A stretch of 49,849 bases of DNA from Bacteroidaceae bacterium (lineage in GTDB: Bacteria > Bacteroidota > Bacteroidia > Bacteroidales > Bacteroidaceae). Every line of letters begins with the position of its first letter. Position 1 is the stretch's first letter. The notes beneath the pieces are model-generated. The model was not told the DNA's origin and searched no databases. It was given only the letters and a program-made list of their open reading frames with translations. The stretch covers positions 1 through 49,849 of the forward strand of contig JAFNXM010000012.1 of assembly GCA_017383485.1 (NCBI GenBank), written 5' to 3'. Below, one piece after another: positions 14,899-48,741 of this stretch. A program made the translations under genes and the position numbers.

Positions 14899-14982
14899 CT
14901 CAAGGCTTTGTAAAAATTTCGCTACGGCAAATTTAAAAAACTCAAGACTTTTTTTTGACGAGGACTTACCTTGTTGTCACCT
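14899..14982 (+). repeat. 21-nt-period repeat array A (four units)
   Basis: Four consecutive 21-nt units start at 14899, 14920, 14941 and 14962. Units 1, 3 and 4 show the family core (CTCAAGGC, CTCAAGAC, GGACTTACC) followed by T/A tracts; unit 3 ends in the shared GACGA. Unit 2 is the most degenerate. It lies between convergent genes. Same orientation as arrays B-E. Confidence 0.75.
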
Positions 14983-15029
14983 TAACAAATATAGGGGGGA
15001 GAAAAGATTTGATAGTAGTGGAGGATAAA

Positions 15030-15073
15030 ATCAAAAAAGCCTGCGGTGGTGTCTGTCGGACCACTTGCAGGCT
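15030..15073 (-). terminator. Rho-independent terminator after lysA
   Basis: AGCCTGC with GGTGGT (15038-15050) pairs with ACCAC and GCAGGCT (15060-15073). On the minus strand the stem is followed by TTTTTTGATTTT. This is the likely end of the clpC-rfbC-lepA-ftsE-lysC-lysA transcript. Confidence 0.8.
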
Positions 15074-15131
15074 GTATGTGTGTGTGAATCGCCCCCCGAA
15101 CGATGCGTGGGCACTTCGTATCAAGGGCCAA

Positions 15132-16325
15132 CTACACCTCTGAATATACTGCGGGCGCCAATGGGCGACTGTTGTAACATGAAGCCATGGACTGACCATA
15201 AGCACCGGCCGAATGTATGGCCAGCAGATCTCCCCGCCGGGTATGGGGGAATTGCTGTGCAATAGCAAAGATATCACTGCTTTCGCAGATAGGACCGACG
15301 ATGTCGTAGGTTTCGGTGGCTGCATCGTGGGATGCGGTGAGGTGAGTGATGTGATGACGCGCGCCGTACATGGCTGGACGAATCAGGTCGTTCATCCCTG
15401 CATCGAGGATGACAAATTTCTTCGCTTCACCCTCCTTGACATAAAGTACACGTGAAATGAGGTGGCCGCATTGACAAATGATGGAACGACCCAATTCGAA
15501 GTGTATTTCCGTGCCCTGTGGTAGGCGAAGGTGTGAATGGAAGGTGTGAAAATATTTGGCAAAGTCGGGCAGGGGATGGTCCAATGGATGACGATAGTCT
15601 ACGCCGAGTCCACCGCCTACGTTGATGCTTTGCAGGGCGATGCCCTGGTCTGTCAGTTGGCTCACGATGGTATTGATACGCTCGCACAATGTTTGGAACA
15701 CGTGCATCTGTTCGATTTGCGAGCCAATGTGGAAATGTAGTCCAACCAGTGTGACTGCGCTCAATTGCTTGGCCTCCTCGACAGCTTGCGAAAGGTGTGC
15801 CAGCGAGATACCAAATTTGTTTTCGCTCAACCCCGTAGTAATCTTCTCGTGAGTGTGTGCATCTACGTCAGGATTTACACGAAAGGCTACGCGTGCCTGG
15901 CGATGCATTTTCTCGGCTATTTCGTTGATGACACGCAGTTCGGCCAGGCTTTCGACGTTGAAACATCCAATTTCGTGCTCGAGTGCTAGGGCGATTTCAG
16001 CGTCTGATTTGCCCACCCCTGCATACACTATTTGATGACTGGGTATACCCGCCTGGATAGCACAGGCGATCTCGCCCCCACTGACACAATCTGCGCCAAG
16101 GCCGTGGCTGGCAATAATCGATAGAAGTTTGGGGTCGTGGTTGGCCTTGATGGCGTAGTGTACATGATAGTTGGGATATTTCCCTGATTCTGTGACTACG
16201 GTCTCCAATGTATGGCGAAGCAGTGCAATATCATAGTAATAGAATGGAGTGTGTAGTGATTGGAATTGGTCAATAGGAAACATACGTCTATATTTAGTTG
16301 GTGTGTTGGGAATGAGGGTAGACAT
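15132..16325 (-). CDS. lysA: Diaminopimelate decarboxylase
   Basis: A PLP-dependent fold III decarboxylase that converts meso-diaminopimelate to lysine, the last step of lysine synthesis. The PLP lysine lies in HYAIKANHDP, the glycine-rich phosphate loop in NVGGGLGVDYRHP, and the active-site cysteine in GPICESSDIFA. From the ATG at 16325 it has 397 residues. A TTG at 16337 would extend it slightly, while an internal ATG at 16283 (MFPIDQFQ) would give 383 residues, which fits related proteins best. It follows lysC by about 35 nt, so the first and last enzymes of the aspartate-to-lysine route are co-transcribed. Confidence 0.93.
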   Translation of the reverse strand: MSTLIPNTPTKYRRMFPIDQFQSLHTPFYYYDIALLRHTLETVVTESGKYPNYHVHYAIKANHDPKLLSIIASHGLGADCVSGGEIACAIQAGIPSHQIVYAGVGKSDAEIALALEHEIGCFNVESLAELRVINEIAEKMHRQARVAFRVNPDVDAHTHEKITTGLSENKFGISLAHLSQAVEEAKQLSAVTLVGLHFHIGSQIEQMHVFQTLCERINTIVSQLTDQGIALQSINVGGGLGVDYRHPLDHPLPDFAKYFHTFHSHLRLPQGTEIHFELGRSIICQCGHLISRVLYVKEGEAKKFVILDAGMNDLIRPAMYGARHHITHLTASHDAATETYDIVGPICESSDIFAIAQQFPHTRRGDLLAIHSAGAYGQSMASCYNSRPLAPAVYSEV

Positions 16326-16360
16326 GGCATTAACCAAACCTACCCCCGTAGTATATACTC

Positions 16361-17674
16361 TTAATTAAAGAGATGCTGGCTTAGTGCTTGCAAAGCCTTG
16401 GCTTTGTCTTCTTCTCGAATCAAAAATGAGATGTTGTGGTTGCTACCACCGTATGAAATCATACGAATAGGTACATCGGCCATGGCTTGTGTCACCTGAC
16501 TTTCAAATCCGATATTTTCCATCACGAGGTCGCCCACGACGCAGATGATGCACATGTTGTGGTCCACTTCGACCGTACCACACTTTTTCAATTCCTCGAG
16601 GATGGGCACGATGCGGCTGGTGTTGTCGATACTCAACGAGATACCGACCTCTGATGTAGTGACCATGTCAATGCTGGTGTTGTAGGTCTCGAAGATTTCA
16701 AAGACTTTGCGCAAGAAACCTGTAGCGAGGAGCATACGGCTTGACACAATCTTGATAGCAGTGATGTTTTCCTTTGCAGCTACAGCCTTGATGCAACCAC
16801 CCGTCATGACATTGTTGATGAGTGTGCCAGGTGCCGAGGGTTCCATCGTGTTGAGCAAACGTACGGGTACGCCGGCAAAGCGAGCGGGCTGGATGCATGT
16901 GGGGTGCAGAATCTTGGCACCGAAGTAAGCCAATTCGGCTGCCTCCTCGAAGTGCAACTGACGAACGGGGGTAGTACCCTCGACAACGCGTGGGTCATTG
17001 TTGTGCATACCATCGATATCGGTCCAAATTTGGATCTCGTCTGCACGAAGCGCTGAACCAATCAAACATGCGGTGTAGTCGGAGCCACCACGGCGCAAGT
17101 TGTCAATACCGCCACCACTATTGCGGCAGATGAAACCCTGTGTGATGTAAATATCATAGCCCCGGTGCTTGTCCAGAATTTCGCGCAAGTGTTGGTTGAT
17201 ATATGCGGTGTCGGGCTCGCCATTTTCGTCTATCTTCATATAGTCAAGTGCTGGGAGCAAGCACACATTGACGCCCAACTCCTTCAGATAATTGGTCATC
17301 ATATTGGTGCTCATCAATTCGCCTTGGGCGAGGATAGACTTTTCGGCATCTTCGTTGAAAGTAGCGCCAGCAAACGAATGCAGGTGCATGAAGATATCGT
17401 CGAGGATTTGTGCGGTGGCGTTCAACATATCGTTGTTTGAAAATAGTTTCTCAATATGTTGGAAATATGTTGTACGCAAGTGATTGATTACGGCGCTGGC
17501 TGATTCGGGATTGCGCTTGCGCAGATAATCTGCAATTTCTACTAAGGTATTTGTCGTACCAGACATGGCAGAGAGCACTACGATTTTTTGCTCGCCGTCG
17601 TTGATTAAATCTGCTACATTCTTGATGCGCTCAGGACTTCCAACTGAAGTGCCACCAAACTTTAATATCTTCAT
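16361..17674 (-). CDS. lysC: Aspartate kinase (monofunctional)
   Basis: A 437-residue kinase that phosphorylates aspartate, the entry to lysine, threonine and methionine synthesis. The N-terminus MKILKFGGTSVGSPERI carries the KFGGTSV signature, and the central block GGSDYTACLIGSALRA is the substrate/ATP site. The C-terminal about 130 residues hold two ACT domains, for example the segment with VTTSEVGISLSIDNTSR. There is no homoserine dehydrogenase fusion. Feedback control by lysine through the ACT domains is likely from family knowledge. It sits between the ftsE-like gene and lysA. Confidence 0.95.
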   Translation of the reverse strand: MKILKFGGTSVGSPERIKNVADLINDGEQKIVVLSAMSGTTNTLVEIADYLRKRNPESASAVINHLRTTYFQHIEKLFSNNDMLNATAQILDDIFMHLHSFAGATFNEDAEKSILAQGELMSTNMMTNYLKELGVNVCLLPALDYMKIDENGEPDTAYINQHLREILDKHRGYDIYITQGFICRNSGGGIDNLRRGGSDYTACLIGSALRADEIQIWTDIDGMHNNDPRVVEGTTPVRQLHFEEAAELAYFGAKILHPTCIQPARFAGVPVRLLNTMEPSAPGTLINNVMTGGCIKAVAAKENITAIKIVSSRMLLATGFLRKVFEIFETYNTSIDMVTTSEVGISLSIDNTSRIVPILEELKKCGTVEVDHNMCIICVVGDLVMENIGFESQVTQAMADVPIRMISYGGSNHNISFLIREEDKAKALQALSQHLFN

Positions 17675-17738
17675 AATTTTTTGTTGCCTTTTATTATAAC
17701 GTAAACTTATTTTCTTGCTGCAAAATCAGACTGGCTTA

Positions 17739-18452
17739 TTAGCCCTCTATCTCTATTTCTTCGCTCAAGCAAATAGGATTGTTGTATTCCTGTGTGATAT
17801 CTTCGACCTTTCCATCCTTGCATATATAGACTACGCCAGGGTATGAACGCAAGAGGGCTAAATTGTGTGTCACCATAACGACTGCGGTATTTTTTTCGCA
17901 AACGGAACGTAGCAACTGGATTATTTGCTTTCCTGTCTCATAATCTAAATTCCCAGTCGGTTCGTCTGCAAGAATCAACTTAGGGTGGTTCAATAGTGCA
18001 CGTGCAATAGCAATGCGTTGTTGCTCGCCACCTGATAGTTCGTGTGGATAACAATTGGCTTTGTCCTGCATACCAACTTCCTGCAACACTTCATTGATTC
18101 GAACTTCTCTTTCAGATTTTTCTGTCCAATCAGTGGCACGTAATACGAAGTCCAGATTCTTGTAAACGGTGCGGTCGTTCAGTAACTGGAAATCCTGGAA
18201 AACAATGCCCAATTGCTTTCTCAGTGATGGAATATGTTTAGGCTTTAATTGACACAAATCAAATCCCAGGACTTCTGCCTTGTTCGCTTCTACGGGCAAT
18301 TCACCATAGAGCGTTTTCATCAGAGAACTTTTACCAGAGCCAACCTTTCCGATAATATATACAAATTCGCCTGCCGAGACATTAAAGTCTACATCGGTCA
18401 GAATGGTTTTATCCTCTAAAGCAATAGTAGCATTTGATAATTCGATGTACAT
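17739..18452 (-). CDS. ftsE: FtsE-like ABC transporter ATP-binding protein
   Basis: A 237-residue ABC ATPase. Walker A is GKVGSGKSS (residues about 35-43), the signature motif is [15 protein letters not shown], Walker B is [12 protein letters not shown], and the switch histidine is in VMVTHN. The Q-loop reads VFQDFQLL, as in FtsE/LolD-type proteins. FtsE with FtsX controls peptidoglycan hydrolases at the septum, but no ftsX gene lies in this window, so assignment within the FtsE/LolD group rests on similarity and on the known ftsE-lysC-lysA order in Bacteroidales. It starts 30 nt after lepA. Confidence 0.85.
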
Positions 18453-18482
18453 ATATAATAATATATAATGATGGATGTGAAA

Positions 18483-20264
18483 TTAGTCTAACTTGAGAAC
18501 TGCGAGAAAGGCCTTTTGTGGCACTTGTACGTTGCCTATTTCCTTCATACGTTTCTTACCACGCTTTTGCTTTTCAAGCAATTTTCTTTTACGGCTGATA
18601 TCACCGCCATAACATTTTGCAGTTACGTCCTTGCGCACTTGTTTTACCGTCTCACGAGCAATAATCTTAGCACCGATGGCTGCCTGGATAGCAATATCAA
18701 ACTGTTGACGTGGCAGAAGTTCCTTCAACTTTTCACACATACGACGACCGAAGTTTACGGAGTTGTCCACGTGGGTTAAAGTAGACAGCGCATCGACAGG
18801 TTCGCCATTGAGCAGGATATCAAGTTTGACCAATTTTGAAGGTCTAAACCCAATTGGGTGATAGTCGAACGAAGCGTAACCCTTGGAAATAGATTTGAGT
18901 TTGTCGTAGAAGTCAATCACGATTTCAGCCAATGGCATGTCGTAATAGAGTTCGACACGATTGCCCGACACGTACTCTTGCTTGATGAGTTCGCCACGCT
19001 TGCCCAGACACAGGGTCATGATATTGCCGATGTAATCGGTGCGGGTGATGATAGAGGCGCGGATATAGGGCTCTTCGATATGTTCGATTTCCAGAATGTC
19101 GGGCATACCAGCAGGGTTGTGTACCTCCTTCATCTCTCCATGCTTGTCGTAGATATGGTAGGATACGTTGGGTACGGTGGTGATGACGTTCATGTTGAAC
19201 TCTCTGTCCAAACGTTCCTGCACAATCTCCATGTGTAGCATTCCCAAGAAACCGCAACGGAAACCAAAACCGAGTGCTACGGATGATTCGGGTTGGAAAG
19301 TGAGTGACGCGTCATTCAGTTGCAACTTTTCGAGTGAAGCGCGCAACATTTCAAAGTCTTCGGTCTCGATAGGGTAGATACCAGCAAAGACCATAGGTTT
19401 GACTTCTTCGAAACCCTCGATCGCTTTTTCGCAGGGATTCTTTGCTGATGTAATAGTATCACCAACTTTGACCTCGGTGGCAGTTTTAATCCCCGACACG
19501 ATATATCCTACGTCGCCACAAGTCAGAACTTGTCTCGGTGATAAGTCCATTTTTAGTACACCTATTTCATCTGCGTCGTAATGCTTTTGAGTATTGACGA
19601 AAACGACATCTTCACCCTTGCGGATACTACCATTGACGATTTTAAAGTAAGCGATAATACCGCGGAATGAGTTGAATACAGAGTCAAAGATAAGGGCTTG
19701 CAGTGGCGCATCTGGGTCACCTTTTGGCGCAGGTATGCGCTCAATTACTGCTCTAAGGATATCTTCCACGCCCTGACCTGTCTTGCCCGACGCATGTATG
19801 ATTTCTTCCTCTTTGCAGCCCAGCAGTTCGACGATCTCGTCGGAAACTTCTTCGGGCATTGAGTTTGGCATATCGCACTTGTTCAGCACGGGGATGATCT
19901 CGAGGTCATGTTCGATAGCCATGTACAAGTTTGAAATGGTTTGAGCTTGAACCCCCTGCGTAGAGTCGACGATGAGCAAACATCCCTCGCAAGCCGCGAT
20001 ACTTCTACTCACTTCGTATGAAAAGTCAACGTGTCCCGGAGTGTCAATCAGGTTTAATACATATTTTTCGCCGTCCAAGGTGTATTCCATTTGGATAGCG
20101 TGGCTTTTGATAGTGATACCTCTTTCTTTCTCCAAATCCATATCATCCAGCATCTGACCTTCTGTCACGTTGACAGTGTTGGTGTATTCCAACAAGCGGT
20201 CTGCCAGGGTACTCTTACCATGGTCGATATGTGCGATGATACAAAAATTTCTGATATGCTTCAT
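18483..20264 (-). CDS. lepA: Elongation factor 4 (ribosomal back-translocase)
   Basis: A 593-residue translational GTPase. GTP-binding motifs are all visible: AHIDHGKST (G1), RGITI (G2), DTPGHVD (G3) and NKCD (G4). The EF-G-like domains and the LepA-specific C-terminal domain follow, ending in [19 protein letters not shown], a family hallmark. The length matches bacterial LepA. LepA binds ribosomes and affects elongation and initiation under stress. It sits 27 nt after rfbC and 30 nt before the ftsE-like gene. Confidence 0.97.
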
Positions 20265-20291
20265 TTTATCGTTTGTAATATATTCAAGAAT

Positions 20292-20846
20292 TTAAAACTT
20301 TTCTGCTGCTTCAAAAGATACAGCATGGTTCAGGTCCTTTTCGCTCAACAAAATTTCGCCTTCCTCAGTGATAGGCCATTCGATACCTATCTGCGGATCG
20401 TTGTAGATAATGCTACATTCTGCTTCGGGAGCATAACGATTGTCTACTTTGTAGGTGAAAACCGCAGTATCTGAAGTTACTTGAAAACCATGTGCGAATC
20501 CGCGTGGGATAAACAACTGTCTTTTGTTTTCAGCACTGAGTTCTACAGCTACATATTTACCATAGGTGGGCGAATCTTTACGTAAGTCTACTGCCACGTC
20601 TACCACACTACCGCTTAAGACTCTGACCAATTTTGCTTGCGAAGCATCTCCTTTTTGATAGTGTAAGCCACGCAACACGCCCTTGGTAGACATGGACTGG
20701 TTGTCTTGAATAAAGTGTACAGGATAACCCACTGCTTTGTCGAAATCTTCTGCTCTGTAAGTTTCCATGAAATAACCTCTGGCATCTTCGAATACCTTTG
20801 GCTCCAGAATCCAAACATCTGGTATGGTGGTTTTAATGTAGTTCAT
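20292..20846 (-). CDS. rfbC: dTDP-4-dehydrorhamnose 3,5-epimerase
   Basis: A 184-residue cupin-fold epimerase in dTDP-L-rhamnose synthesis. Key blocks are RGYFMETYRAEDF near residue 24, VLRGLHYQKGD (catalytic histidine) near 57, PRGFAHGFQV near 113 and the tyrosine in FTYKVDNRYAPE. The length is typical. The other rfb genes are absent, so this enzyme is separated from the rest of its pathway. It is placed between clpC and lepA in one run, with gaps of 61 and 27 nt. Confidence 0.95.
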   Translation of the reverse strand: MNYIKTTIPDVWILEPKVFEDARGYFMETYRAEDFDKAVGYPVHFIQDNQSMSTKGVLRGLHYQKGDASQAKLVRVLSGSVVDVAVDLRKDSPTYGKYVAVELSAENKRQLFIPRGFAHGFQVTSDTAVFTYKVDNRYAPEAECSIIYNDPQIGIEWPITEEGEILLSEKDLNHAVSFEAAEKF

Positions 20847-23258: not shown

Positions 23259-23342
23259 ACCTAAGGATAATTTTTACGAGGCGTCGCGAAATTTTAAAAA
23301 GGTCTAGGCTTATTTTTACAATCCCTAGGCTTTTTTTAGGGT
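23259..23342 (+). repeat. 21-nt-period repeat array B (four units)
   Basis: Units start at 23259, 23280, 23301 and 23322. Cores are CCTAAGG, GGCGTCGCG, GGTCTAGGC and CCCTAGGC, each followed by an AT tract; unit 1 ends TACGA and unit 3 TACAA. It lies between divergent genes and keeps the same orientation as the other arrays. Confidence 0.8.
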
Positions 23343-23475: not shown

Positions 23476-23504
23476 TGCTGAAATCGTAAAACGAAGTTAA
23501 GAGC

Positions 23505-31828: not shown

Positions 31829-31912
31829 AGTCTTAGCTTTTTTAAAAAAGGTCAAGGTTTTTTCAAATTATGTTAGACCTTTTTTCAACGAGGCCTTAGG
31901 TTGTGAAATATA
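31829..31912 (+). repeat. 21-nt-period repeat array C (four units)
   Basis: Units start at 31829, 31850, 31871 and 31892. Cores are AGTCTTAGC, GGTCAAGGT, GTTAGACC and GGCCTTAGG, with T-rich tracts between; unit 3 ends CAACGA. Lies between divergent genes; same orientation as the others. Confidence 0.85.
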
Positions 31913-35515: not shown

Positions 35516-38257
35516 ATGCAAAATTTGCAAACACTGGTACAAAATCGCGTCTTGATATTGGATGGTGCTATGGGCACGATGATTCAGCGCTATAAATTGA
35601 CTGAAGCAGACTATCGTGGCACACGTTTTGTAGACCTTCCAGGCATACAATGTGGCAACAATGATTTGCTCACTCTCAGTGCTCCGCATATCATAGAGGA
35701 TATTCATCGTAAATATCTCGACGCAGGGGCAGACATCATCGAGACCAACACCTTCAATGCGCAACGCGTATCTATGGCAGATTATGGATGCCAGGCGCTT
35801 TGTCGGGAGATGAACTTGGCTGCAGCAAAATTGGCAAGAAGACTGGCTGACGAATATACGCAAAAGCAACCCAGCAAACCACGCTTTGTCGCAGGGTCGA
35901 TAGGTCCAACCAATCGTACCTTGTCAATGAGTCCCGATGCCAATAATCCTGCGCTCAGAAATTTGACTTTCGATGAATTGGTTGATGCTTATCAAGAACA
36001 AATCGAAGCATTGCTCGAGGGTGGTGTAGATGCTTTGCTCATCGAGACCATCTTTGACACATTGAATGCTAAGGCCGCACTTGTTGCTACTGAAGAAGCG
36101 TTCAAGCGCTTTGCGGCAGTGCCAGTGATGCTAAGTTTGACCCTTGCAGACAAGGCAGGACGTTCCTTCTCTGGTCAAACCTTAGACGCCTTTTGGGCAT
36201 CCGTACAGCATTATCCCATCTTCTCGGTAGGGTTGAACTGTTCGTTTGGCGCAGACCAAATGAAACCCTTTCTCAAACATTTGTCACAAATAGCACCTTG
36301 CTATATCTCGGCCTATCCCAACGCAGGTTTGCCCAATGCCCTTGGCGAGTACGATCAGACACCACAGGATATGGCACGTTTGGTAAGAGAACTAATCGAA
36401 GAAGGCGTGGTGAATATCATAGGCGGTTGCTGTGGTACGACTAACGAATACATCGCTGCAATTACCCAAGAGATTAGCCCACTACCTCAATTCACATCGC
36501 CCAGACAAACAATGCCTGCCGACGAGCGACTCACCCTTTCTGGACTTGAGGCAACGTCTCTGTTTGGCGATAATGCTTTCCTTGCAATTGGTGAAAGATG
36601 TAATGTTGCAGGTTCTCGTAAGTTCTTAAGACTCATTAAGGAGAAAGATTATACCTCGGCAATAGAAATAGCACGTCAGCAGGTGCTGGACGGCGCCATG
36701 TGCATTGATATCAACCTGGACGACGCTATGCTTGAAACAGTCGAGGAAATGACACATTTTCTCAACTTGCTTGCCGCAGAACCTGAAATTGCCCGTGTAC
36801 CCTTTATGATAGACTCGTCAGACTGGAACGTCATCGAACAAGCATTGAAGTGTGTCCAAGGCAAATGTATTGTCAATTCTTTGTCGTTGAAAGAGGGTGA
36901 AGCGCTTTTCTTAGACCGAGCACGCCGAGCACGCCGATATGGTGCTGCTATCGTAGTGATGGCGTTTGATGAGCAGGGTCAAGCGACGACTTATGAACGC
37001 AGAATCGCTATCTGTGAACGTGCCTATCACCTCTTGACAGAGCAAGTCGGTATGCCTGCACATGATATCATATTCGATCCTAATATCCTGGCGATTTGTA
37101 CAGGTATTGATGAGCACGACCAATATGCCCTTGATTTCATCCGTACTATCGAGTGGATAAAGCAACATTTCCCCTCTACGCATATAGTCGGCGGATTGAG
37201 CAACCTTTCCTTCTCGTTCCGTGGCAATAACTATATTCGTGAAGCGATTCACACGGTGTTCCTGCATCATGCGAGAGCAGTGGGTATGGATATGGCTATA
37301 TTGAATCCAAGTACACAGATTGCCTACGAAACGCTGCCTGCTGAACTGCAAAGCGCTATCAGTGATGCCCTGTATTGCCGTGGTGAAGGTGCCGAGGGAT
37401 TGATTGCAGTGGCAGAAAAGTATCATGAGAAAACTGTCGGCGGTGCGGTGAAAGAGAGTAACGAGTGCAAGGCCATGTCGCTATGTGAAAGGTTGTCACA
37501 TTATCTCCAGCAAGGCAATCAAAAGGACTTGTTGGCAGACCTTGAAATCGCTTTGCAAGAATACCCCAGTGCTGCAGAAATTATCGAGGGACCATTGATG
37601 GCAGGTATGAACCGTGTAGGCGAACTGTTTGGTGCCGGTCAAATGTTTCTGCCTCAGGTAGTCAAGGCTGCTCGTACGATGAAGGCAGCAGTCGAAGTGT
37701 TGCGTCCACATTTGCTTCAAGGTGCAACAGATACTCCAAGTCGTGGTAAAGTATTGATGGCAACGGTCAAGGGCGACGTGCACGATATCGGCAAAAATAT
37801 CGTCGCAGTAGTCTTGACTTGTGGCGGATTTGAAGTCATAGATTTGGGTGTGATGTGTCAGACCGAGGATATCGTTCAAGCAGCAATCGAGCATCAAGTG
37901 GATATGGTCGGACTTAGCGCCCTTATCACTCCAAGTCTGCACGAAATGGAAGAAGTCGCTCGTGCGATGCAAGCAGCAGGTTTGCGTATCCCCCTGCTGA
38001 TAGGTGGTGCGACTACGAGCAAACTCCATACGGCATTGAAGATTTCACCCCTCTACGATGGTCCTGTGACTTGGATAAACAATGCTTCGCTTGTAGTTCC
38101 CGTCGCTACCCAACTGATAAGTCCCGATACCCGTGATGCCCTTGTAGCTCAGAATGAGGCAGAGCATCAACAAGTGGTCGAGCGTCATCTCAACATGGAG
38201 GAAAAACCACTAACGACTTTGGATGAGGCTCGTGATAATCGTCCCGTTCTATTTTAG
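35516..38257 (+). CDS. metH: Cobalamin-dependent methionine synthase without reactivation domain
   Basis: A 913-residue enzyme that methylates homocysteine using methyltetrahydrofolate and cobalamin. Domains in order: homocysteine-binding barrel (residues about 1-320; zinc cysteines C242, C305 and C306 in GLNCSFG and GGCCGTT), pterin-binding barrel (about 340-620), B12 cap helices (about 650-740) and B12-binding domain with DVHDIG at 754-759, where H756 coordinates cobalt. It ends where the SAM-dependent reactivation domain of the about 1220-residue E. coli enzyme would begin. The end is clean, with no sign of a frameshift into that domain. No cobalamin riboswitch is seen upstream. Confidence 0.93.
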   Translation: MQNLQTLVQNRVLILDGAMGTMIQRYKLTEADYRGTRFVDLPGIQCGNNDLLTLSAPHIIEDIHRKYLDAGADIIETNTFNAQRVSMADYGCQALCREMNLAAAKLARRLADEYTQKQPSKPRFVAGSIGPTNRTLSMSPDANNPALRNLTFDELVDAYQEQIEALLEGGVDALLIETIFDTLNAKAALVATEEAFKRFAAVPVMLSLTLADKAGRSFSGQTLDAFWASVQHYPIFSVGLNCSFGADQMKPFLKHLSQIAPCYISAYPNAGLPNALGEYDQTPQDMARLVRELIEEGVVNIIGGCCGTTNEYIAAITQEISPLPQFTSPRQTMPADERLTLSGLEATSLFGDNAFLAIGERCNVAGSRKFLRLIKEKDYTSAIEIARQQVLDGAMCIDINLDDAMLETVEEMTHFLNLLAAEPEIARVPFMIDSSDWNVIEQALKCVQGKCIVNSLSLKEGEALFLDRARRARRYGAAIVVMAFDEQGQATTYERRIAICERAYHLLTEQVGMPAHDIIFDPNILAICTGIDEHDQYALDFIRTIEWIKQHFPSTHIVGGLSNLSFSFRGNNYIREAIHTVFLHHARAVGMDMAILNPSTQIAYETLPAELQSAISDALYCRGEGAEGLIAVAEKYHEKTVGGAVKESNECKAMSLCERLSHYLQQGNQKDLLADLEIALQEYPSAAEIIEGPLMAGMNRVGELFGAGQMFLPQVVKAARTMKAAVEVLRPHLLQGATDTPSRGKVLMATVKGDVHDIGKNIVAVVLTCGGFEVIDLGVMCQTEDIVQAAIEHQVDMVGLSALITPSLHEMEEVARAMQAAGLRIPLLIGGATTSKLHTALKISPLYDGPVTWINNASLVVPVATQLISPDTRDALVAQNEAEHQQVVERHLNMEEKPLTTLDEARDNRPVLF

Positions 38258-38263
38258 TCAAAC

Positions 38264-38278
38264 CTTGTTTGAAACAAG
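38264..38278. repeat. Short inverted repeat between metH and the GH5 gene
   Basis: CTTGTTT and AAACAAG are exactly complementary around one base, giving at most a 5-bp stem with a 5-nt loop. It may be a weak terminator after metH; there is no T-run. Confidence 0.35.
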
Positions 38279-39626: not shown

Positions 39627-39710
39627 AGTCTTGGTTTTTTATAACGAGGTCTTGGAAAATTCAAACAAGGTCTTGGGAATTTTCAACGAGGTCTAACCTT
39701 AGAGAAATAA
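39627..39710 (+). repeat. 21-nt-period repeat array D (four units)
   Basis: Units start at 39627, 39648, 39669 and 39690. Cores AGTCTTGG, GGTCTTGG, GGTCTTGGG and GGTCTAACC are the best conserved of all five arrays, and units 1 and 3 end AACGA. It lies between co-directional genes (GH5 and ruvA). Confidence 0.9.
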
Positions 39711-40523: not shown

Positions 40524-43500
40524 ATGAATTTGTATTACAAAATACTATTGATAGTACTGGGGGTAACACTGAGTGGTGTTGCTCTTGGTAATCAATTCCG
40601 TACCTTGCAAATAGACGAAACTGATATCCAAGTCTCTGATACTATCCAACCTCGCTTCCCCGTACAAAAGACCTCAGCAGAGGAGATGAAGACCGAAAAA
40701 ACTTCGGGAGATTTGCGCAATCCTGAGAACCTGAAGACAGATATTTTCTATGATGAAAAGACTGGTGAATATCGCTTTGGTACGAAATTGGGTGACAACT
40801 TCCTCACAGCACCTTTCTATATGTCGCCAAAGGAGTACGAAGAATGGTGTGCCAAGCGTTCAGCAATAGATTTCTTCCGCAAGAAGAACAAAGACGACTT
40901 TGATGCTAAGGGTAAAGAGAAATTTGACTTCACCGATATGAAGTTTGACCTTGGTCCCGCCAGCAAAATATTTGGTCCTGGCGGTGTACGCATCAAGACT
41001 CAAGGTTCGGCAGAACTGAAGATTGGTGCTAATACACGTTTTGTCGACAACCCCTCGTTGTCTGAGCGCAACCGCAGAGTCTTTGGCTTCGACTTCAACG
41101 AAAAGATTAATCTGAGCGTTTCGGGTAAGGTGGGTGACAAGGTTAATATGGATTTTAACTACAACTCGGAAGCAACTTTCAATTTTGATACACAAAATAT
41201 CAAACTACGCTATGAGGGCAAGGAGGACGAGATAATCAAACTTCTCGAAGCAGGTAATGTGTCCCTACCTTCCAACTCGTCGTTGATACGTGGTGCCCAG
41301 TCGCTCTTTGGTATCCGTGCCGACACGCAGTTTGGTAAGTTGAAGTTGCAGACTGTAATGTCACAAAAGAAATCAAGCAGTCAGTCTGTCAACTCGAAGG
41401 GAGGGGTGCAGCTCACGCAATTTGAAATCCCAGTCGACGAATATGATGAAAACCGTCACTTCTTCCTCTCACACTTCTTCCGTGAACGCTACGACGAGAA
41501 CATGAAGCAATTGCCCAACATTGTCTCGGGTATTGATATCAATCGTATCGAAGTATGGGTGACCAACAAGAGTGGTGCTACCAATAATACAAGGAATATT
41601 ATCGCCCTGACCGATTTGGCTGAATCAGAGCATACTGGCAATCCCATGTGGGGGACTTCTTCGCTTATTCCTCCAACCAATGCTGCCAATGGACTGTATC
41701 AAACACTGACGACCGAATGGGTGGATGCTCGTGATATCTCGATGACCAATCCCGTCCTCGACGGTGCTGGTCTTGTGGGTGGAGATGATTACGAGAAGTT
41801 GGAATCTGCACGCTTGTTGACGTCATCTGAGTATAAGTTGAATGCTTCGTTCGGTTATATCTCTTTGCGTACGACGCTCCAGCCTGACCAAGTACTTGCC
41901 GTTGCCTACGAATATACCTATCGCGGTACACGCTATCAAGTCGGCGAATTCTCTACAGACTTGAAAGACAACAAATCGGCTCTATTTGTTAAAGCATTGA
42001 AGAATACAGCCTGTACGCCTCAGATGGCCAACTGGGACTTGATGATGCGCAACGTTTATTCACTTGGTGCAACGTCTGTGCAAAAGGATAAGTTTAAGTT
42101 GGATATCAAGATATTGAGCGACTCTACGGGCGTCTACCTCTCGTATTTGCCCGAACCCGATTTGAAGAATCAGAAGATTCTCTCACTCGTTGGTCTCGAT
42201 AGATTGGACAATAACAACAAGCATAACCCAAATGCTTACTTTGACTTTGTAGAAGGTTATACGATTGACTCTGAATCGGGAAGAATCTTCTTCCCCGTAG
42301 CAGAACCATTTGGCGAAAATCTGCGTCGTGTTATTGGCAATCCTGCTGTTGCGGATCGCTATGTATACCAAGAACTCTACGACTCGACCAAGACTATTGC
42401 GAAGCAAATTGCCGAGAAGAACAAATACCGCATCGTCGGTGAATACAAGGCAACCAAGCGTGACGAAATCCAACTCGGTGCAATGAATATCCCTCGTGGT
42501 TCTGTGGTCGTGACAGCAGGTGGTGTCACCCTGATGGAAGGTTCAGACTATACCGTCGACTACTACTCTGGTATCGTCAAGATTTTGAATAAGAGCATCC
42601 TCGATGCTGGTACCAACGTCAATGTGAGCCTTGAGAGCAACACAGATTATGGCATGCAGCGCAAGAGTATGTTTGGTGTCAACTGGCAGTACGACTTCAC
42701 AAACAACTTCCAAATCGGTGGTACCTTGATGCACCTTGGCGAAAAACCACTCACCACAAAAGTCTCGATGGGTAGCGAACCATTGAATAATACTTTGTGG
42801 GGACTGAACCTGTCGTGGAAGAAGCAGAGTCAATGGTTGACGGATATGATAGATAAGTTGCCCTTGATAGAATGTTCAGCACCTTCGAGCATCAACCTAA
42901 CGGCTGATTTTGCTCACCTCATTGCTGGTAAGAACAAGGGTTCACAAGGCAACGCTTCCTATATCGATGATTTCGAAAATGCCAAAAATGGCATCGACAT
43001 CAGCAACCCCGAGGAGTGGAACATCAGTAGTGTGCCTTCTACATTCGCCGAGTCGTCTTTGCTCAATGATGTACGCTCGGGATACAATCGTGCTAAATTG
43101 GCATGGTACACTATCGACCCTATCTTCACACGTCGTTCGTCGTCTATCACCCCTGGGCATATCAAGGGCGACTTGAAGCAACTATCAGATCCCGACGTAC
43201 GTGAAGTGTACAAGAACGAACTCTTTCCCAACAAGAGCATCAACTTCCGTGAGGCATCGACGCTCAATGTCCTCAACCTGGCCTATTATCCCAACGAACG
43301 TGGACCTTACAACCTCGACCCTAACCTTGATGTTGACGGTAAATTGCTGCAACCAGAGAAGCGTTGGGGTGGTATGATGCGCAAGTTGGAAACGAGCGAT
43401 TTCGAAAGTGCTAATATAGAGTACCTCGAGTTCTGGATGATGGACCCCTATATCAAGTCTCGTCAAAACGGCACTTTACCTGCTCAGGGCGACCTCTATT

Positions 43501-46500
43501 TTAACCTAGGTGAAATCAGCGAGGACATCCTTAAGGACGGCAAGAAATTCTATGAAAGTGGCTTGCCCATAGATGGTGATGCTACGCAAGTGGTGGATAC
43601 CCAATGGGGTAGGGTGCCTACACAAAATAGTGTGACCTATGCCTTCAATACCGCTAGTGATTCACGCCAGAAACAAGACGTGGGATACAACGGTCTGACA
43701 TCTGAGGAAGAGTTGGAATTCCCAGCCTACAAAAATTACCTCGAGCAAATCCGTCCTATCGTGCGTCCCGAGGTCTACGATTCTATAGTAATGTCGCCCT
43801 CTGCCGACCGCTATCACTACTATCGTGGTACTGATTTTGATGAACGAGAAGTACCTATCTTGCAGCGATACAAGGATATCAACAATCCTAACGGCAACTC
43901 GGTAGATGCCGACCATTCGCCAGAAAAATACAGCACGGCATACAAGACACAACCTGACGTCGAGGATATCAACCAGGACTACACTTTGAACGAGTACGAG
44001 AAGTACTATCAGTATCGTGTACGTATCTCGCCCGAGGAAATGCAAGTGGGCAATAATTATATCGTCGACAAGCGTACGGCAAACATTCAGACACGTGATG
44101 GCGAGAAGCGAGAAGTAGATTGGTACCTCTTCCGTATTCCACTCGACCTATACGAAAAACGACAAGGCAATATCGCCGACTTCTCATCAATCCGTTTTAT
44201 CCGTATGTATATGACAGGGTTTAGCGAACCTGTCGTTCTGCGTCTTGCTACCTTGGATTTGGTCTATGGACAGTGGCGCTCGTACGAACAAGCACTCTAT
44301 GCAGATAAGGCACCAGAGGTGAGTGGTACGATGAGCGTATCGGCGGTCAACTTTGAGGAGAACAATGAGAAGACGCCAGTCAACTATGTCTTGCCTCCTG
44401 GTATCAGTCGTGTCATAGACCCAGGTCAAGACCAAGTGCTGCAAAACAACGAGCAAGCTATCTCGATGACCTTGCGCAATCTTGCTTCGGGCGATGCACG
44501 TGCTATCTACAAGAACCTGCAACTCGACTTGCGCAGGTACAAACACTTGCAGATGTTCATCCACGCCAACAGTTTGCCTGGTCAGGTGCCCGTCGCTGAT
44601 GGTCAGACCAGTCTGTTCTTGCGTCTTGGTTCGGACTACAAGAACAACTTCTATGAATACGAAATCCCCTTGGCTGTGACGCCCGAAGGCAAATATGCCA
44701 ACTCAGACGCTGGTGCTCGTATCGTATGGCCAGCATCAAATATGCTTGACATTGACCTCAGTATCTTCACCGACTTGAAGCGCAATCGCAATCAGCAGAA
44801 GGCACAAGGTCTTGCCACCTACCACCAGCCCTATAGCGAGTACGACACAGACAAACCTGCCAACAAGGTGAGCATCGTTGGTAATCCCTCGTTGGGCGAG
44901 GTGCGTACCATCATGATAGGGGTGCGCAACAATTCACGTACGCTGCAACATGTTGAAGTCTGGGCCAACGAATTGCGCTTACAACAGTTCTCCAACAAGG
45001 GCGGATGGGCAGCCCAGGGAGCGCTCAATATGCAACTGTCCGATTTGGCAAGTGTCAACCTGACGGGGCATGTCGAGACTGATGGCTTCGGTGGATTGGA
45101 GGAAGGCGTATCGCAACGTCGTGACGACAACCTCTACCAATACTCAGTCACTACGAATGTCGACGCTGGTCGTCTGTTGCCCGAAAAGGTGAAACTCAAG
45201 GCGCCTATATATTATTCGTATAGCAAGGAGCGTACTTCGCCTCGCTACAATCCCCTTGACACGGATATGGAGATGGAAGAGTCGCTCGAATCTGCTACGA
45301 CCACCGAGCGTGATAGCATCAAGAATATCGCCGATCGTGTGGTGGAAAATCGCAACTTCTCTATCTCTGGTGTGCGCTTTGATATTGCGAGCAAGAAGTA
45401 CTCGATGCCTTACGACCCCGCCAACTTCACCGTGGGCTATTCACATAGTCGCCGCAACACCACAGGACACGTCACTGCTTGGGAAAAGGACGAAAACTGG
45501 AAAGTCAACTTCGGATATGCCTACAATCCTAACTTCAAACCCTTCGAACCGTTCAAGAAGTTGAAGGGCAAGAGCAAGTGGTTGAAGATTGTGAAGGATT
45601 TCAACGTCAACTATGCGCCACAGTCCTTGACCTTCAGCACTGACCTCGTACGCCGCTACTACGAGTTGCAGGAGCGTGATATGGAGAACCTTGAAAATCA
45701 GTCCTTGCCACTGACATGGAGCAGCGACTTCACATGGAATCGCAATTTCGCCCTACGTTGGGACCTTGCCAAGAGTCTCCACTTCAACTTCTCGTCAGGT
45801 ACCAATGCTGAGGTAGAACAACCCTATACTGCCGTCAACGAGGACCTTTATCCCGACCGCTACACGGCATGGAAGGACTCTGTATGGCAGAGCATTCGCC
45901 ATCTGGGTACACCGCTCACTTATCAGCAGAACTTTGATGCTTCGTGGCAAGTTCCGCTCAACAAACTGCCACTTTTCGACTGGTTGACCGCTGATGCTAA
46001 GTACAACGCTACCTACAATTGGAACCGTGGTACGTCGCTCAGCACGGGCATGAATATGGGTGGTGTGGTATCTTCGTCTCGCACTGCTTCGGGCAATGTA
46101 CGCCTCAAGATGGAGACGCTCTACAACCACATCCCATTCCTCAAGGAGGCGAATAAGCGCTTCTCGACTTCGGGTATCAATTCGGCAGCCAACAAGAAGA
46201 ATCAGGCGAAGAAAAACTATACCTCTGAGGTGCAGTTGAAACCCGACACCACCGTCACCGTCAAGCACAATCAGCGTAGCAAGAAACTACGTGTCACAGC
46301 ATTGCGTCCCGATGGCACTAAGTATCCCGTTAAGTTTAAGGTGCTGGACAATAATAGCATACAAATCCTGTCGCAAGATACGGTCAAGGTGAAAATCACC
46401 GTACAACCCAAGAAGCGCAAGGAGGAACAAGGGTGGTATCAAGGTCTGCAACTGACTGCTCGTGTAGCTATGCTAGTGCGCAATGTCAGTGTCTCGTACA

Positions 46501-47951
46501 CCAATAAATATAGCATGGCGTTGCCAGGTTTCTTGCCCTTGGCTGGCGACATCTTTGGTCAGCGCGCCACCGATGGCGGCTATGCACCAGGTCTGCGCTT
46601 CGCCTTTGGCATGGTCGACGATTCCTATATTGATCACGCTGTGCGGCAAGGGTGGTTGTTACAGAGCGACAGCATCATCACACCAGCCACATCCAACATG
46701 GGCGAGGACTTGCAAATACGTGCTACGCTCGAACCCTTCACCGATGTCAAGATTGACTTGAATGCTTCACGTTCGACGTCGCAAAACTCCTCTACACAGT
46801 ACATGATTGAGGGTATGCCACGTACCTATAGTGGTAGTTTCAACATGACGACGATGAGTATCCACACCGCTTTCGAATCGATGGGCGATGTAGATCGTGG
46901 ATACAAGAGTGCTTCGTTCGACCGCTTCCTAGGTAAGTTGCAATACTTCCAACAGAAGGCTGAAGCACTATACCGTGGCAGCACCTATCCACATGGGTCT
47001 ACCCTTGCGGGACAACCTTTCGATCCCAAGAATGGTACAGTGGGCCAATATTCAGCTGGCGTCATGATACCAGCCTTCCTCGATACCTACACACTCTCGG
47101 GTCGTGATGGATTGTCGCTGATGCCTGCACTGACGGCATTGCTGCCCAACTGGACCATTAAGTACGCTGGCCTGGCGAAGTTGCCACGCATGAAGAAGGT
47201 GTTCAAGAGTTTCAATATCAACCACTCGTACAAGAGCATCTATAGCATCGGTTCGTACAACACATTCACATCGTTCCAGGCGATGAATGGCTGTCACGGT
47301 TTCATCACCGACGTTACCACTGGTCTGCCCACACCATCTACGATGTACGATATGTCGACCGTATCACTCAACGAAACATTCTCGCCCCTCGCAGGTATTG
47401 ATATGACCTTCAACAACAACCTCACAGCCAAGGTCGAATATCGCAAGACACGTGCTCTGACGCTCAGCATGACTTCGGGTCAAATCACTGAGGCGCGTTC
47501 CAACGACTTAGTCGTAGGTCTCGGTTACAAGATTGCCGATCTCAACCTCTTTGCCCCCCGCAAGGCAGTGCGTATGAAGGGCGATAAGCGCAGCAAGGGT
47601 AAGTCGGCGAAGGGTGGCGAAGACGAATCGAAATCCAGCAGTAGCAGTTCGTCGTCCAAGGGTCGCTCGAGCAGTAGTGGTGGTTTCAGTCAAGACTTGA
47701 ACCTACGTTTCGACTTGACCTTCCGCAATCAGAGTGGTCTGAATCGCGACATCATGACGGCGCTGACGCAAGCGACCTCGGGCAATCGTGCCTTGCAAAT
47801 CTCATTCTCTGCTGACTATGCGCTGAGCAAATACCTTACGCTCACAGCCTACTACGACCGTCAGTTCAACAAACCACTCCTCACCACCTCGTCATACCCC
47901 ATCACCACCCAAGACTTTGGCGTGACTGTGAAGTTTGTGCTAAATCGATAG
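40524..47951 (+). CDS. sprA: Type IX secretion system outer-membrane translocon protein SprA
   Basis: A 2475-residue protein, close to the length of characterised SprA (about 2400). It starts with a signal peptide (MNLYYKILLIVLGVTLSGVALG) and continues with the SprA N-terminal repeats (for example the GPGGVRIKTQGSAELKIG stretch near residue 155) and long alternating beta segments, ending in aromatic-rich strands TLTAYYDRQFN and a final DFGVTVKFVLN. SprA forms a giant single-chain beta-barrel through which folded T9SS cargo passes, with PorV and partners; those genes are not in the window. A basic, serine-rich insert at about residues 2350-2390 precedes the last strands. It is preceded by ruvA and followed by a strong hairpin. 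Confidence 0.97.
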   Translation: MNLYYKILLIVLGVTLSGVALGNQFRTLQIDETDIQVSDTIQPRFPVQKTSAEEMKTEKTSGDLRNPENLKTDIFYDEKTGEYRFGTKLGDNFLTAPFYMSPKEYEEWCAKRSAIDFFRKKNKDDFDAKGKEKFDFTDMKFDLGPASKIFGPGGVRIKTQGSAELKIGANTRFVDNPSLSERNRRVFGFDFNEKINLSVSGKVGDKVNMDFNYNSEATFNFDTQNIKLRYEGKEDEIIKLLEAGNVSLPSNSSLIRGAQSLFGIRADTQFGKLKLQTVMSQKKSSSQSVNSKGGVQLTQFEIPVDEYDENRHFFLSHFFRERYDENMKQLPNIVSGIDINRIEVWVTNKSGATNNTRNIIALTDLAESEHTGNPMWGTSSLIPPTNAANGLYQTLTTEWVDARDISMTNPVLDGAGLVGGDDYEKLESARLLTSSEYKLNASFGYISLRTTLQPDQVLAVAYEYTYRGTRYQVGEFSTDLKDNKSALFVKALKNTACTPQMANWDLMMRNVYSLGATSVQKDKFKLDIKILSDSTGVYLSYLPEPDLKNQKILSLVGLDRLDNNNKHNPNAYFDFVEGYTIDSESGRIFFPVAEPFGENLRRVIGNPAVADRYVYQELYDSTKTIAKQIAEKNKYRIVGEYKATKRDEIQLGAMNIPRGSVVVTAGGVTLMEGSDYTVDYYSGIVKILNKSILDAGTNVNVSLESNTDYGMQRKSMFGVNWQYDFTNNFQIGGTLMHLGEKPLTTKVSMGSEPLNNTLWGLNLSWKKQSQWLTDMIDKLPLIECSAPSSINLTADFAHLIAGKNKGSQGNASYIDDFENAKNGIDISNPEEWNISSVPSTFAESSLLNDVRSGYNRAKLAWYTIDPIFTRRSSSITPGHIKGDLKQLSDPDVREVYKNELFPNKSINFREASTLNVLNLAYYPNERGPYNLDPNLDVDGKLLQPEKRWGGMMRKLETSDFESANIEYLEFWMMDPYIKSRQNGTLPAQGDLYFNLGEISEDILKDGKKFYESGLPIDGDATQVVDTQWGRVPTQNSVTYAFNTASDSRQKQDVGYNGLTSEEELEFPAYKNYLEQIRPIVRPEVYDSIVMSPSADRYHYYRGTDFDEREVPILQRYKDINNPNGNSVDADHSPEKYSTAYKTQPDVEDINQDYTLNEYEKYYQYRVRISPEEMQVGNNYIVDKRTANIQTRDGEKREVDWYLFRIPLDLYEKRQGNIADFSSIRFIRMYMTGFSEPVVLRLATLDLVYGQWRSYEQALYADKAPEVSGTMSVSAVNFEENNEKTPVNYVLPPGISRVIDPGQDQVLQNNEQAISMTLRNLASGDARAIYKNLQLDLRRYKHLQMFIHANSLPGQVPVADGQTSLFLRLGSDYKNNFYEYEIPLAVTPEGKYANSDAGARIVWPASNMLDIDLSIFTDLKRNRNQQKAQGLATYHQPYSEYDTDKPANKVSIVGNPSLGEVRTIMIGVRNNSRTLQHVEVWANELRLQQFSNKGGWAAQGALNMQLSDLASVNLTGHVETDGFGGLEEGVSQRRDDNLYQYSVTTNVDAGRLLPEKVKLKAPIYYSYSKERTSPRYNPLDTDMEMEESLESATTTERDSIKNIADRVVENRNFSISGVRFDIASKKYSMPYDPANFTVGYSHSRRNTTGHVTAWEKDENWKVNFGYAYNPNFKPFEPFKKLKGKSKWLKIVKDFNVNYAPQSLTFSTDLVRRYYELQERDMENLENQSLPLTWSSDFTWNRNFALRWDLAKSLHFNFSSGTNAEVEQPYTAVNEDLYPDRYTAWKDSVWQSIRHLGTPLTYQQNFDASWQVPLNKLPLFDWLTADAKYNATYNWNRGTSLSTGMNMGGVVSSSRTASGNVRLKMETLYNHIPFLKEANKRFSTSGINSAANKKNQAKKNYTSEVQLKPDTTVTVKHNQRSKKLRVTALRPDGTKYPVKFKVLDNNSIQILSQDTVKVKITVQPKKRKEEQGWYQGLQLTARVAMLVRNVSVSYTNKYSMALPGFLPLAGDIFGQRATDGGYAPGLRFAFGMVDDSYIDHAVRQGWLLQSDSIITPATSNMGEDLQIRATLEPFTDVKIDLNASRSTSQNSSTQYMIEGMPRTYSGSFNMTTMSIHTAFESMGDVDRGYKSASFDRFLGKLQYFQQKAEALYRGSTYPHGSTLAGQPFDPKNGTVGQYSAGVMIPAFLDTYTLSGRDGLSLMPALTALLPNWTIKYAGLAKLPRMKKVFKSFNINHSYKSIYSIGSYNTFTSFQAMNGCHGFITDVTTGLPTPSTMYDMSTVSLNETFSPLAGIDMTFNNNLTAKVEYRKTRALTLSMTSGQITEARSNDLVVGLGYKIADLNLFAPRKAVRMKGDKRSKGKSAKGGEDESKSSSSSSSSKGRSSSSGGFSQDLNLRFDLTFRNQSGLNRDIMTALTQATSGNRALQISFSADYALSKYLTLTAYYDRQFNKPLLTTSSYPITTQDFGVTVKFVLNR

Positions 47952-47956
47952 GCTTT

Positions 47957-48060
47957 AACAACAGATGGCACTGATGTATCAGATATTATTCAATAAATCT
48001 GTTATATCAGTGCCATCTGTTGTTTATAAAAAGTACCCAGGATACCCGTGATACGTGGAT
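47957..48060. repeat. Palindromic repeat element, copy 1 (possible sprA terminator)
   Basis: A perfect 19-bp inverted repeat, AACAACAGATGGCACTGAT (47957-47975) with its complement at 48006-48024, surrounds a 30-nt centre. The right flank to 48060 includes GATACCCGTGATACGTGGA. A second copy lies at 48494-48597 with the same right flank but with the centre in the opposite orientation. It starts 6 nt after the sprA stop and may end that transcript. Confidence 0.8.
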
Positions 48061-48331
48061 AAATATCTCCAGCGTATCTCGTGTATCTTCTCGTATTTTT
48101 ATTTGGGGAGCTCACGCAGATTCCACGGATTTCACGGAGGGCACTTGCTCCGCTCGTGCTGACCATTCGGGACATTCTGCAATGTCCACCTGAGTCAGGG
48201 GGACGAGCACCAAAGGTGCGGAGGGGGTATGTAAACATATGTTATCTCCGGCGTATCGCGGGTATCTCGTGTATCTTCCAGTAAATATTGGGGTTCACAC
48301 AAACGAAGTTCGACGTTAAAGTCAACTCCTT

Positions 48332-48464
48332 GGAATCTATAAAAATATATTTCAAAAGATTCTACAGATTTGCGTGAGGCTAGAAGAAAAAGCTCACGCA
48401 AATCTTGGGAATCTAAAAAATAAATTCAAAAAATATTTTAAAAGATTTTCTAGATTTGCGTGAG
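48332..48464. repeat. Direct repeat pair with internal 13-bp inverted repeat
   Basis: Two related stretches, 48332-48378 and 48408-48464, both begin GGAATCTA and end AGATTTGCGTGAG with A/T-rich middles. Between them CTCACGCAAATCT (48393-48405) is the exact complement of the shared end at 48366-48378, forming a hairpin. Confidence 0.7.
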
Positions 48465-48493
48465 ACAAAAAAACTATCTGCTGGATTATTATT

Positions 48494-48597
48494 TAACAAC
48501 AGATTAAACAGATGGCACTGATATAACAGATTTATTGAATAATATCAGTGCCATCTGTTGTTTATAAAAAATACCCAAGATACCCGTGATACGTGGA
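48494..48597. repeat. Palindromic repeat element, copy 2
   Basis: An 18-bp inverted repeat (48507-48524 with 48542-48559) carries the same CAGATGGCACTGATAT arm as copy 1. The centre (ATAACAGATTTATTGAATA) is the reverse complement of the copy 1 centre, while the right flank GATACCCGTGATACGTGGA is in the same direction in both. Confidence 0.8.
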
Positions 48598-48657
48598 GGC
48601 ATTTCTGCGCTTTGATCTACTCCTTATACTCCACACCTTCATGCCCCCCCCAAAAAA

Positions 48658-48741
48658 GCCTAAGGGAAATTTAAAAAAGCCTAAACCTTTTTTGAAAAAG
48701 GTCTAAGGAAATTTTTACGAGGCCTAAGCTTTTTCAGGCGA
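48658..48741 (+). repeat. 21-nt-period repeat array E (four units)
   Basis: Units start at 48658, 48679, 48700 and 48721. Cores are GCCTAAGGG, GCCTAAACC, GGTCTAAGG and GGCCTAAGC; unit 3 ends TTACGA. An A6 run precedes unit 1. Same orientation as arrays A-D. Confidence 0.9.

Follow-up and report, generated by a model that had tools for sequence, protein, structure and literature searches.

What are five short intergenic arrays, each built on an exact period of 21 nucleotides (nt), doing in one bacterial contig, and what keeps them apart? The question is raised by a stretch of 49,849 nt from a rumen-type Bacteroidaceae bacterium (contig JAFNXM010000012.1 of assembly GCA_017383485.1), hereafter called the window, which is contig C11 of the genome labelled G000, a Bacteroidales draft of 1,677,617 bases in 39 contigs, 63.55% complete, of which 1,677,201 bases, window included, were analysed. 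The arrays belong to an abundant, mostly intergenic family with a fixed pitch, whose members exclude one another over kilobases, keep their sites in a sister species while their modules change, and recur with the same layout and unrelated sequences in relatives. Tentatively, we read them as tandem binding sites for a DNA-binding protein. C-numbers denote contigs and L-numbers loci or stretches.

A genome-wide family in 21-nt register

For the census, a unit model was trained on G000 by hard expectation-maximisation (its unit type 7 came to model an end cap and was removed by trimming), and genes were called as simple open reading frames (ORFs). Arrays of at least two units number 235 in G000, against 37 when the genome is reversed and 6 in a single Markov genome of second order; for at least three units the counts are 205, 12 and 0, and 201 such arrays are left in G000 after end-cap trimming. 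With about 200 arrays of at least three modules, the proviso of a preliminary description of this DNA, that the five sites might have no further copies, can be dropped. The same applies to its second proviso, that spacing elsewhere might not cluster at 21 nt: in non-coding DNA, with no register assumed, 403 of the 440 distances of up to 110 nt between cores are exact multiples of 21 (198 at 21, 128 at 42, 56 at 63, 15 at 84 and 6 at 105 nt), every other distance occurring at most three times. Among 200 arrays of three to eight units, 183 are covered to less than 20% by predicted coding sequence, and 13 to more than 80%.

Each module consists of a 9-bp core (38% AT) and a 12-bp AT-rich linker (84% AT). 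The 841 modules of the 184 intergenic arrays comprise 506 of class P, 244 of class S, 7 of a minor third type and 84 unclassified. P modules read RGYCTW followed by three variable bases; the core GGTCTWAGG, as first described, is one variant of this class, and S forms a second class. The S module (GNCGTCGCG; GVCGTCGCG with ACGA before and AAATTT after) is the most constant part genome-wide. Both classes occur in both orientations. With P and p denoting the two orientations, modules most often follow the order p-p-S-P, in 12 arrays, then p-P-S-P in 9 and p-S-S-P in 7, and S is mostly flanked by outward-pointing P modules (pS 113 vs PS 52; SP 93 vs Ps 30).

The five sites of the window, confirmed in the sequence as four 21-nt units each and all decoded by the genome-trained model, are spaced 7.8-9.0 kb:

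Array 1, 14899..14982, no strand: four degenerate modules, apparently the most degenerate array of the five; between convergent genes 12608-14668 (+, peptidase M49) and 15132-16337 (-, pyridoxal phosphate-dependent decarboxylase).
Array 2, 23259..23342, no strand: four modules, including the sole S module of the window (core 23280-23288, exact S pattern 23276-23294); between divergent genes 20908-23121 (-, ClpB/ClpA-like ATPase) and 23505-24203 (+, methyltransferase-like).
Array 3, 31829..31912, no strand: four P-type modules; between divergent genes 31304-31714 (-) and 31945-32691 (+, ICMT-like).
Array 4, 39627..39710, no strand: four P-type modules; between co-directional genes 38315-39595 and 39774-40436 (ruvA).
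Array 5, 48658..48741, no strand: four P-type modules; downstream of sprA (40524-47951).
Lone module-like match, 38256..38276, no strand: one unit just past gene 35516-38257, which may be a chance match, single units being common in controls.

Arrays lie in 96 co-directional, 45 convergent and 38 divergent gaps, near the proportions of all 518 gaps of at least 120 nt (303, 104 and 111, respectively), so that no gene orientation is preferred, in line with the preliminary description, which placed them between genes of all three arrangements. In co-directional gaps the array is closer to the upstream stop codon in 67 of the 96 cases. The orientation of S is random with respect to co-directional genes (39:36), GC skew (72:73) and contig gene bias (69:76), and a directional role was rejected on the last two comparisons. 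As 21 nt equal seven codons, coding repeats were also considered: an open frame runs through 122 of the 184 arrays, against 101.1 expected from random modules, a small but real excess that similarity between neighbouring modules could yield and that was not taken as coding.

Arrays exclude one another over kilobases

Across 144 intervals between neighbouring arrays in gaps, the mean spacing is 8.3 kb with a coefficient of variation (CV) of 0.42, whereas random placement in gaps weighted by their length gives a mean CV of 0.82 (0.67-1.01, 1000 runs). Intervals shorter than 3 kb account for 0.7% of those observed, against 24% expected. The ratio of observed to expected pairs is 0 at both 0-1 kb and 1-2 kb, 0.07 at 2-3 kb and 0.31 at 3-4 kb, and exceeds 1 between 4 and 13 kb; each of the 179 gaps with an array has just one. 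When arrays overlapping predicted ORFs are counted too (n=165), the CV is 0.39 and the minimum distance 1.9 kb. Because a simulated hard exclusion of 4-4.5 kb reproduces this evenness (CV 0.48-0.43 vs 0.43 observed), the arrangement is one of exclusion and not that of a ruler. An array would therefore exert an influence in cis over several kilobases.

Stable sites and changing modules in a sister species

The exact S pattern occurs in two of 58 genomes of the genus, with 109 matches in G000 and 17 in the sister genome G026, and in one of 119 genomes drawn across the order, namely G000. In a named genome collection, it was found in 17 stretches, 15 of them from 'Prevotellaceae bacterium cow7.9' at places that match G026; the remaining two (L122, Verrucomicrobia, and L125, Atribacteria) have a single match each, with no 21-nt array around it by eye. 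No exact S match was present in viral contigs, and a phage origin was rejected on this ground.

In the 119,891 bases of S-matching loci of G026, 23 arrays were decoded. Fifteen have both flanks at one place in G000 (mean flank identity 94.4%), and at all 15 of these places G000 carries an array. The other eight could not be mapped by two flanks; two of them (L123 919 and L124 7432) are mapped by one flank, with no G000 array there, and lie at rearranged or one-sided places. Modules have been gained, lost or swapped between the sisters. There are 17 module-sized gaps, some of which are model boundary differences. Among 60 aligned modules, 49 differ at two positions at most and 5 at five or more. 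At one site, an in-place inversion affects the two central modules, which lie between inverted outer modules (L130 5659-5730 vs C10 31273-31345).

Two side observations were made on these loci. In L120 5524-5595, compared with C3 48795-48867 of G000, the complementary modules 1 and 3 show mirrored substitutions by eye, as template switching or a pairing constraint may give. On contigs C11, C28, C29 and C84 of G026, exact S matches lie about 130 nt or less from contig ends, as if arrays may break the assembly or vary in the population; one of the 184 arrays of G000 lies within 250 nt of a contig end.

The same layout with other words in relatives

With regard to relatives, 81 loci were scanned (662 kb, of which 58.6 kb non-coding), comprising 20-kb samples from 20 members of the genus, the rest being shorter or from other genera. 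Self-similarity runs at lags of 13-35 nt peak at lag 21 with 11 runs, followed by lag 22 with three, any other lag having at most two. Among the 11 runs, L166 is a low-complexity A/T repeat and L175 a non-dyad; without these two, seven of the 20 genus samples have a run (G007, G010, G016, G018, G038, G040 and G056), and looser settings revealed runs in further genus samples by eye. Applied to G000, the scan returned 86 runs at lag 21 and at most eight at other lags; since 184 intergenic arrays are known there, it misses about half. E. coli K-12 gave no runs in 100 kb. One run of 21 or 22 nt each was seen in three further genera of the family (L208, L217 and L230), and three samples of 10-20 kb from other families of the order gave one lag-21 run, intergenic, at L239 18419-18494. 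The motif ATTCCATTCCCTCACA is common to L168 4562-4687 and L175 11609-11732 (G016 and G003), beside or within repeats.

By eye, the cores of the relatives are unrelated. The G056 core, GTTTG-n7-CAAAC at a 21-nt pitch, occurs in one of 58 genus genomes, with 345 exact matches against 0 in the control. In counts made within each species' own genome, the G007 core CTCCGAGA has 238 matches at up to two mismatches (control 1) and the G018 core GGTTAGT..CTTAACC, at a 22-nt pitch, 54 (control 0); the words of G016, likewise taken in its own genome, form the families GCAGTGCTTGC/GCAAGGCGTTT and GGCAAGGCCTGCC. Such a pitch corresponds to two helical turns and fits the binding of a protein to one face, as first proposed. 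The accompanying proposal of bending by A/T tracts finds no support as a general property, because G056 arrays lack such tracts and keep the 21-nt pitch.

Exclusion was examined in four relatives from array positions picked by hand out of decoded lists. For G016, 17 of 21 listed arrays of at least two units were kept, some with part of their decoded units, and four were dropped as spurious; the G056 and G007 positions are a partial sample, among the matches listed. The null was uniform placement between the first and last array of each contig, with gaps left out of the model. Intervals below 4.5 kb number 0 of 41 in G056 (5.4 expected) and 0 of 49 in G007 (6.3 expected), both among the arrays listed, 0 of 13 in G018 (1.9 expected) and 1 of 16 in G016 (5.1 expected); pooled, and with the same restriction for G056 and G007, this makes 1 of 119 against 18.7 expected under uniform placement. 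Spacing is evener than random in G016 (CV 0.50, null 0.92), and no evener than random among the arrays listed for G056 (1.06, null 0.96) and G007 (1.09, null 1.09). Furthermore, the five G016 arrays of one core family stay at least 5.1 kb away from the twelve of the other (P=0.03).

Proposed tandem sites for a lineage-specific protein

Because pitch and layout are kept and sequence is not, the arrays point to a protein that recognises double-stranded DNA from one side of the helix, and not to RNA. The explanation that we favour, with less than even confidence, is that they are tandem sites for a fast-evolving DNA-binding protein of the lineage, which occupies one helix face, acts in cis over 4-5 kb and likely serves chromosome organisation. 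A sequence-specific protein would load side by side on stable array sites, and the pitch of 21-22 bp, about two turns, would let the bound units face the same way and act together. Once occupied, an array would act in cis over about 4-5 kb, so that a second array in range would not be established or not be kept. The likeliest role would be that of a node of loops or supercoil domains, where an architectural nucleoprotein complex would make close neighbours redundant or harmful. Nucleoid-protein binding, as suggested in the preliminary description, may apply. This explanation draws on the exact register, on exclusion in G000 and in four species with unrelated cores, on the distance between the two G016 families, on the lack of orientation bias, on the 15 shared sister sites and on the proximity to stop codons.

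Several observations weigh against it. No candidate binding protein emerged from the analysis. The evenness of G000 is accounted for by an exclusion of 4-4.5 kb alone, and the sparse species G056 and G007 show similar exclusion and are otherwise no evener than random; for this reason, copying with immunity, discussed below, explains the pattern no less well than a requirement for even coverage would. The cross-family result in G016 rests on five arrays, and two G026 arrays have no G000 counterpart. Finally, array positions show no sign of conservation in distant species (3 of 8 array gaps vs 26 of 96 other gaps, small numbers). On balance, we rank the architectural explanation slightly ahead of the following one.

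Possible copying with target immunity

A possible alternative, to which we give somewhat less credence, is that the arrays spread by transposition-like copying with target (cis) immunity: a module-binding enzyme would insert new arrays, an existing array would block insertions within about 5 kb, and families would differ by species. It accords with an exclusion that is similar while array density varies, and with the absence of a G000 array at the two one-flank-mapped G026 places. The ends of Mu and Tn7 likewise carry tandem transposase sites of about 22 bp. For Mu, cis-immunity is reported to be at its strongest around 5 kb and to weaken out to 25 kb (PMC7350765), which makes its range a striking parallel; like Mu, the arrays keep further copies out over about 5 kb. 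The species-specific families, in turn, resemble the biology of repetitive extragenic palindromic (REP) sequences as presented in PMC2817692.

Unlike Mu or Tn7, the arrays hold no element between ends and have no termini. The 183 arrays examined have neither terminal inverted repeats nor target duplications, and their flanks are not conserved: flank conservation is at most 0.22 bits per position, and scores for target duplications and flank inverted repeats are at the level of re-paired controls. All 15 sister sites testable by two flanks are shared, and in G016 exclusion also holds between unrelated families, both of which speak against copying. The rve domain is unmatched in five of 14 genomes searched (G016, G018, G037, G038 and G040; 80-94% complete), all with arrays or 21/22-nt runs in their samples, and matched, weakly or clearly, in the other nine, G000 included. 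A search for Mu-transpos_C gave no match anywhere, controls included, and hence carries no weight.

Y1_Tnp genes are present in 55 of 151 genomes of the family, with one each in G000, G056 and G010; G007, G016, G018 and G040 are not among the genomes listed (76 genomes without a match are unlisted), so that a Y1 enzyme is conceivable for the family. The Y1 transposase of G000 sits among its own, different repeats, which speaks against copying. In L039 (contig C36 of G000, 38-4777), this gene (3988-4443), which resembles IS200 and REP-associated transposases, lies between its own palindrome clusters (GCCCTTTCAGGGC type, CCCAGGGTGTCG). The ten palindrome patterns tried have 25 matches in G000, 23 of them on C36, in three clusters. 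The locus forms a REPtron-like unit of local extent, with no relation to the 21-nt arrays.

Other explanations

Species-specific self marks such as DNA uptake sequences are an improbable explanation. The array words are lineage-specific, present in many copies and without strand bias; uptake signal sequences and DNA uptake sequences (USS/DUS) are likewise lineage-specific words at many places, and even spacing has been reported and discussed for them (PMC1939737). USS/DUS are single short motifs, whereas the arrays consist of several modules and nearly all lie between genes (183 of 200); in H. influenzae, 65% of the uptake sequences come under a gene-related objection (PMC1939737).

Still less probable, in our view very unlikely, is that the arrays work via RNA, or that at gene ends they terminate transcription or serve as insulators. 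Short hairpins with T tracts are possible in P modules such as AAAAAAGGTCTAACCTTTTTT, and the proximity to upstream stop codons would suit terminators. Yet terminator-like matches occur in one of three arrays in window positions 14001-34000 (19 matches in the region vs 17.7 when shuffled), 38 of 179 arrays lie between divergent genes and S orientation is random relative to co-directional genes; an intrinsic terminator was rejected on these counts. Long-hairpin RNA was likewise rejected, as the folding of whole arrays is no better than that of random-module arrays (z 0.11, standard error 0.08, n=179; single-module hairpins fall outside this test). Inverted core pairs (at least 8 of 9 positions) are in excess at offset 3 alone (6.6% vs 2.8% between arrays), offsets 1, 2 and 4 being below background. 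An Rfam search of the window gave no match, and an RNA or terminator role would leave the exclusion unexplained.

Equally unlikely is that arrays keep apart as a side effect of recombination between similar copies, with close pairs lost by deletion. In its favour, an inversion between G000 and G026 has one breakpoint within an array and a second at 41 nt from an array (C36 150602 and 146505), and opposite-orientation neighbours have a larger minimum distance than those of the same orientation (4.2 vs 2.7 kb). At the breakpoints of a further rearrangement in these loci (C35), G000 carries no array. Against it, the unrelated G016 families also keep apart, and recombination instability is disfavoured because neighbours less than 5 kb apart are mostly co-oriented (16 vs 5), whereas deletion between direct repeats should leave the reverse.

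Comparison with known repeats

In the tests made for miniature inverted-repeat transposable elements (MITEs), REPs and insertion-sequence ends, a match to any of which would have refuted the preliminary description by its own account, no match was obtained. REPs and bacterial interspersed mosaic elements (BIMEs), with their REP-associated tyrosine transposases (RAYTs), are among the closest known systems: like the arrays, they form hundreds of clustered, species-specific intergenic units per genome in both orientations. The arrays differ by their strict 21-22-bp pitch without spacers and by their kilobase exclusion; in the genome that it mapped, RepRanger found REPs neither clustered nor periodic (PMC12306157). 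REPs are defined by a GTAG or CGTC tag at one end (PMC3733652). CGTC lies within the S core and is absent from P modules and from the G056, G007 and G018 cores. As to the palindrome trait, a REP unit being an imperfect palindrome of 20-40 nt that folds into a hairpin, 0.8% of G000 cores agree with their own reverse complement in each of the four outer positions, and the G056 and G018 modules are dyads. No RAYT/Y1 gene flanked by array units was found in G000 (63.6% complete), its sole Y1 match being that at C36 3988-4443. REP/BIME with RAYT was rejected on the tag and on this flanking test.

The BrickBuilt MITE of Porphyromonas gingivalis shares with the arrays a spacerless tandem unit, imperfect copies, an intergenic location and a host in the Bacteroidales (PMC4596501). 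It is described with a 23-nt unit, a leader and a tail with inverted ends, and 1 to 22.8 units at 19 sites (PMC4596501), whereas the arrays have 21 nt, about 200 sites, mixed module classes and no leader, tail or inverted ends; a BrickBuilt or MITE identity was rejected on unit length, leader, tail and terminal inverted repeats. Clustered regularly interspaced short palindromic repeats (CRISPR) were excluded, in agreement with the preliminary description, as the modules abut, with shared linkers and without unique spacers.

At the loosest level, the arrays are intergenic mosaic repeats, as BIMEs are, and this would be the cautious filing. Our search of the open-access literature returned no description of 21-22-nt arrays with kilobase exclusion. 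Because the arrays fail the tests for REPs, BrickBuilt and CRISPR and that literature shows no such element, we call the arrays new in description, and self-excluding arrays of this pitch may be categorically new at that level.

Other features of the window

A tandem 9-bp repeat (TCGGAGTGC, about 7.6 copies) lies between two genes at 6785-6852. The gene at 297-5162 codes for a protein of 1621 residues with a RecQ-like helicase half and a UvrD/PcrA-like half. At 35516-38257, MetH (913 residues) aligns to positions 2-899 of a 1182-position model and lacks the C-terminal part. Upstream of ruvA-sprA, 420 nt viewed by eye at 30 loci showed no array outside G000, a weak comparison, since for many minus-strand matches the side viewed was apparently that of sprA.

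Significance for chromosome biology

More speculatively, and with some doubt, the arrays could represent a lineage-wide class of chromosome-organising elements, with two-turn tandem sites, exclusive domains of about 4-5 kb and a reader protein whose DNA specificity evolves so quickly that every species comes to use a 'word' of its own while the layout persists. By analogy, and with equal reserve, so fast-changing a code might be the bacterial counterpart of the fast-evolving codes of centromeres or recombination hotspots. Kilobase exclusion in five species with unrelated arrays, the sister pair aside, is a measurable trace of cis action over 4-5 kb. Whether a domain-forming protein or insertion immunity is at work, the sites and the pitch are known and many species can be compared, so that questions about supercoil domains and loops in bacteria, and about how intergenic repeats turn over, become testable. 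With a function that we infer, the arrays look like a means, hitherto undescribed, of marking a bacterial chromosome or organising it.

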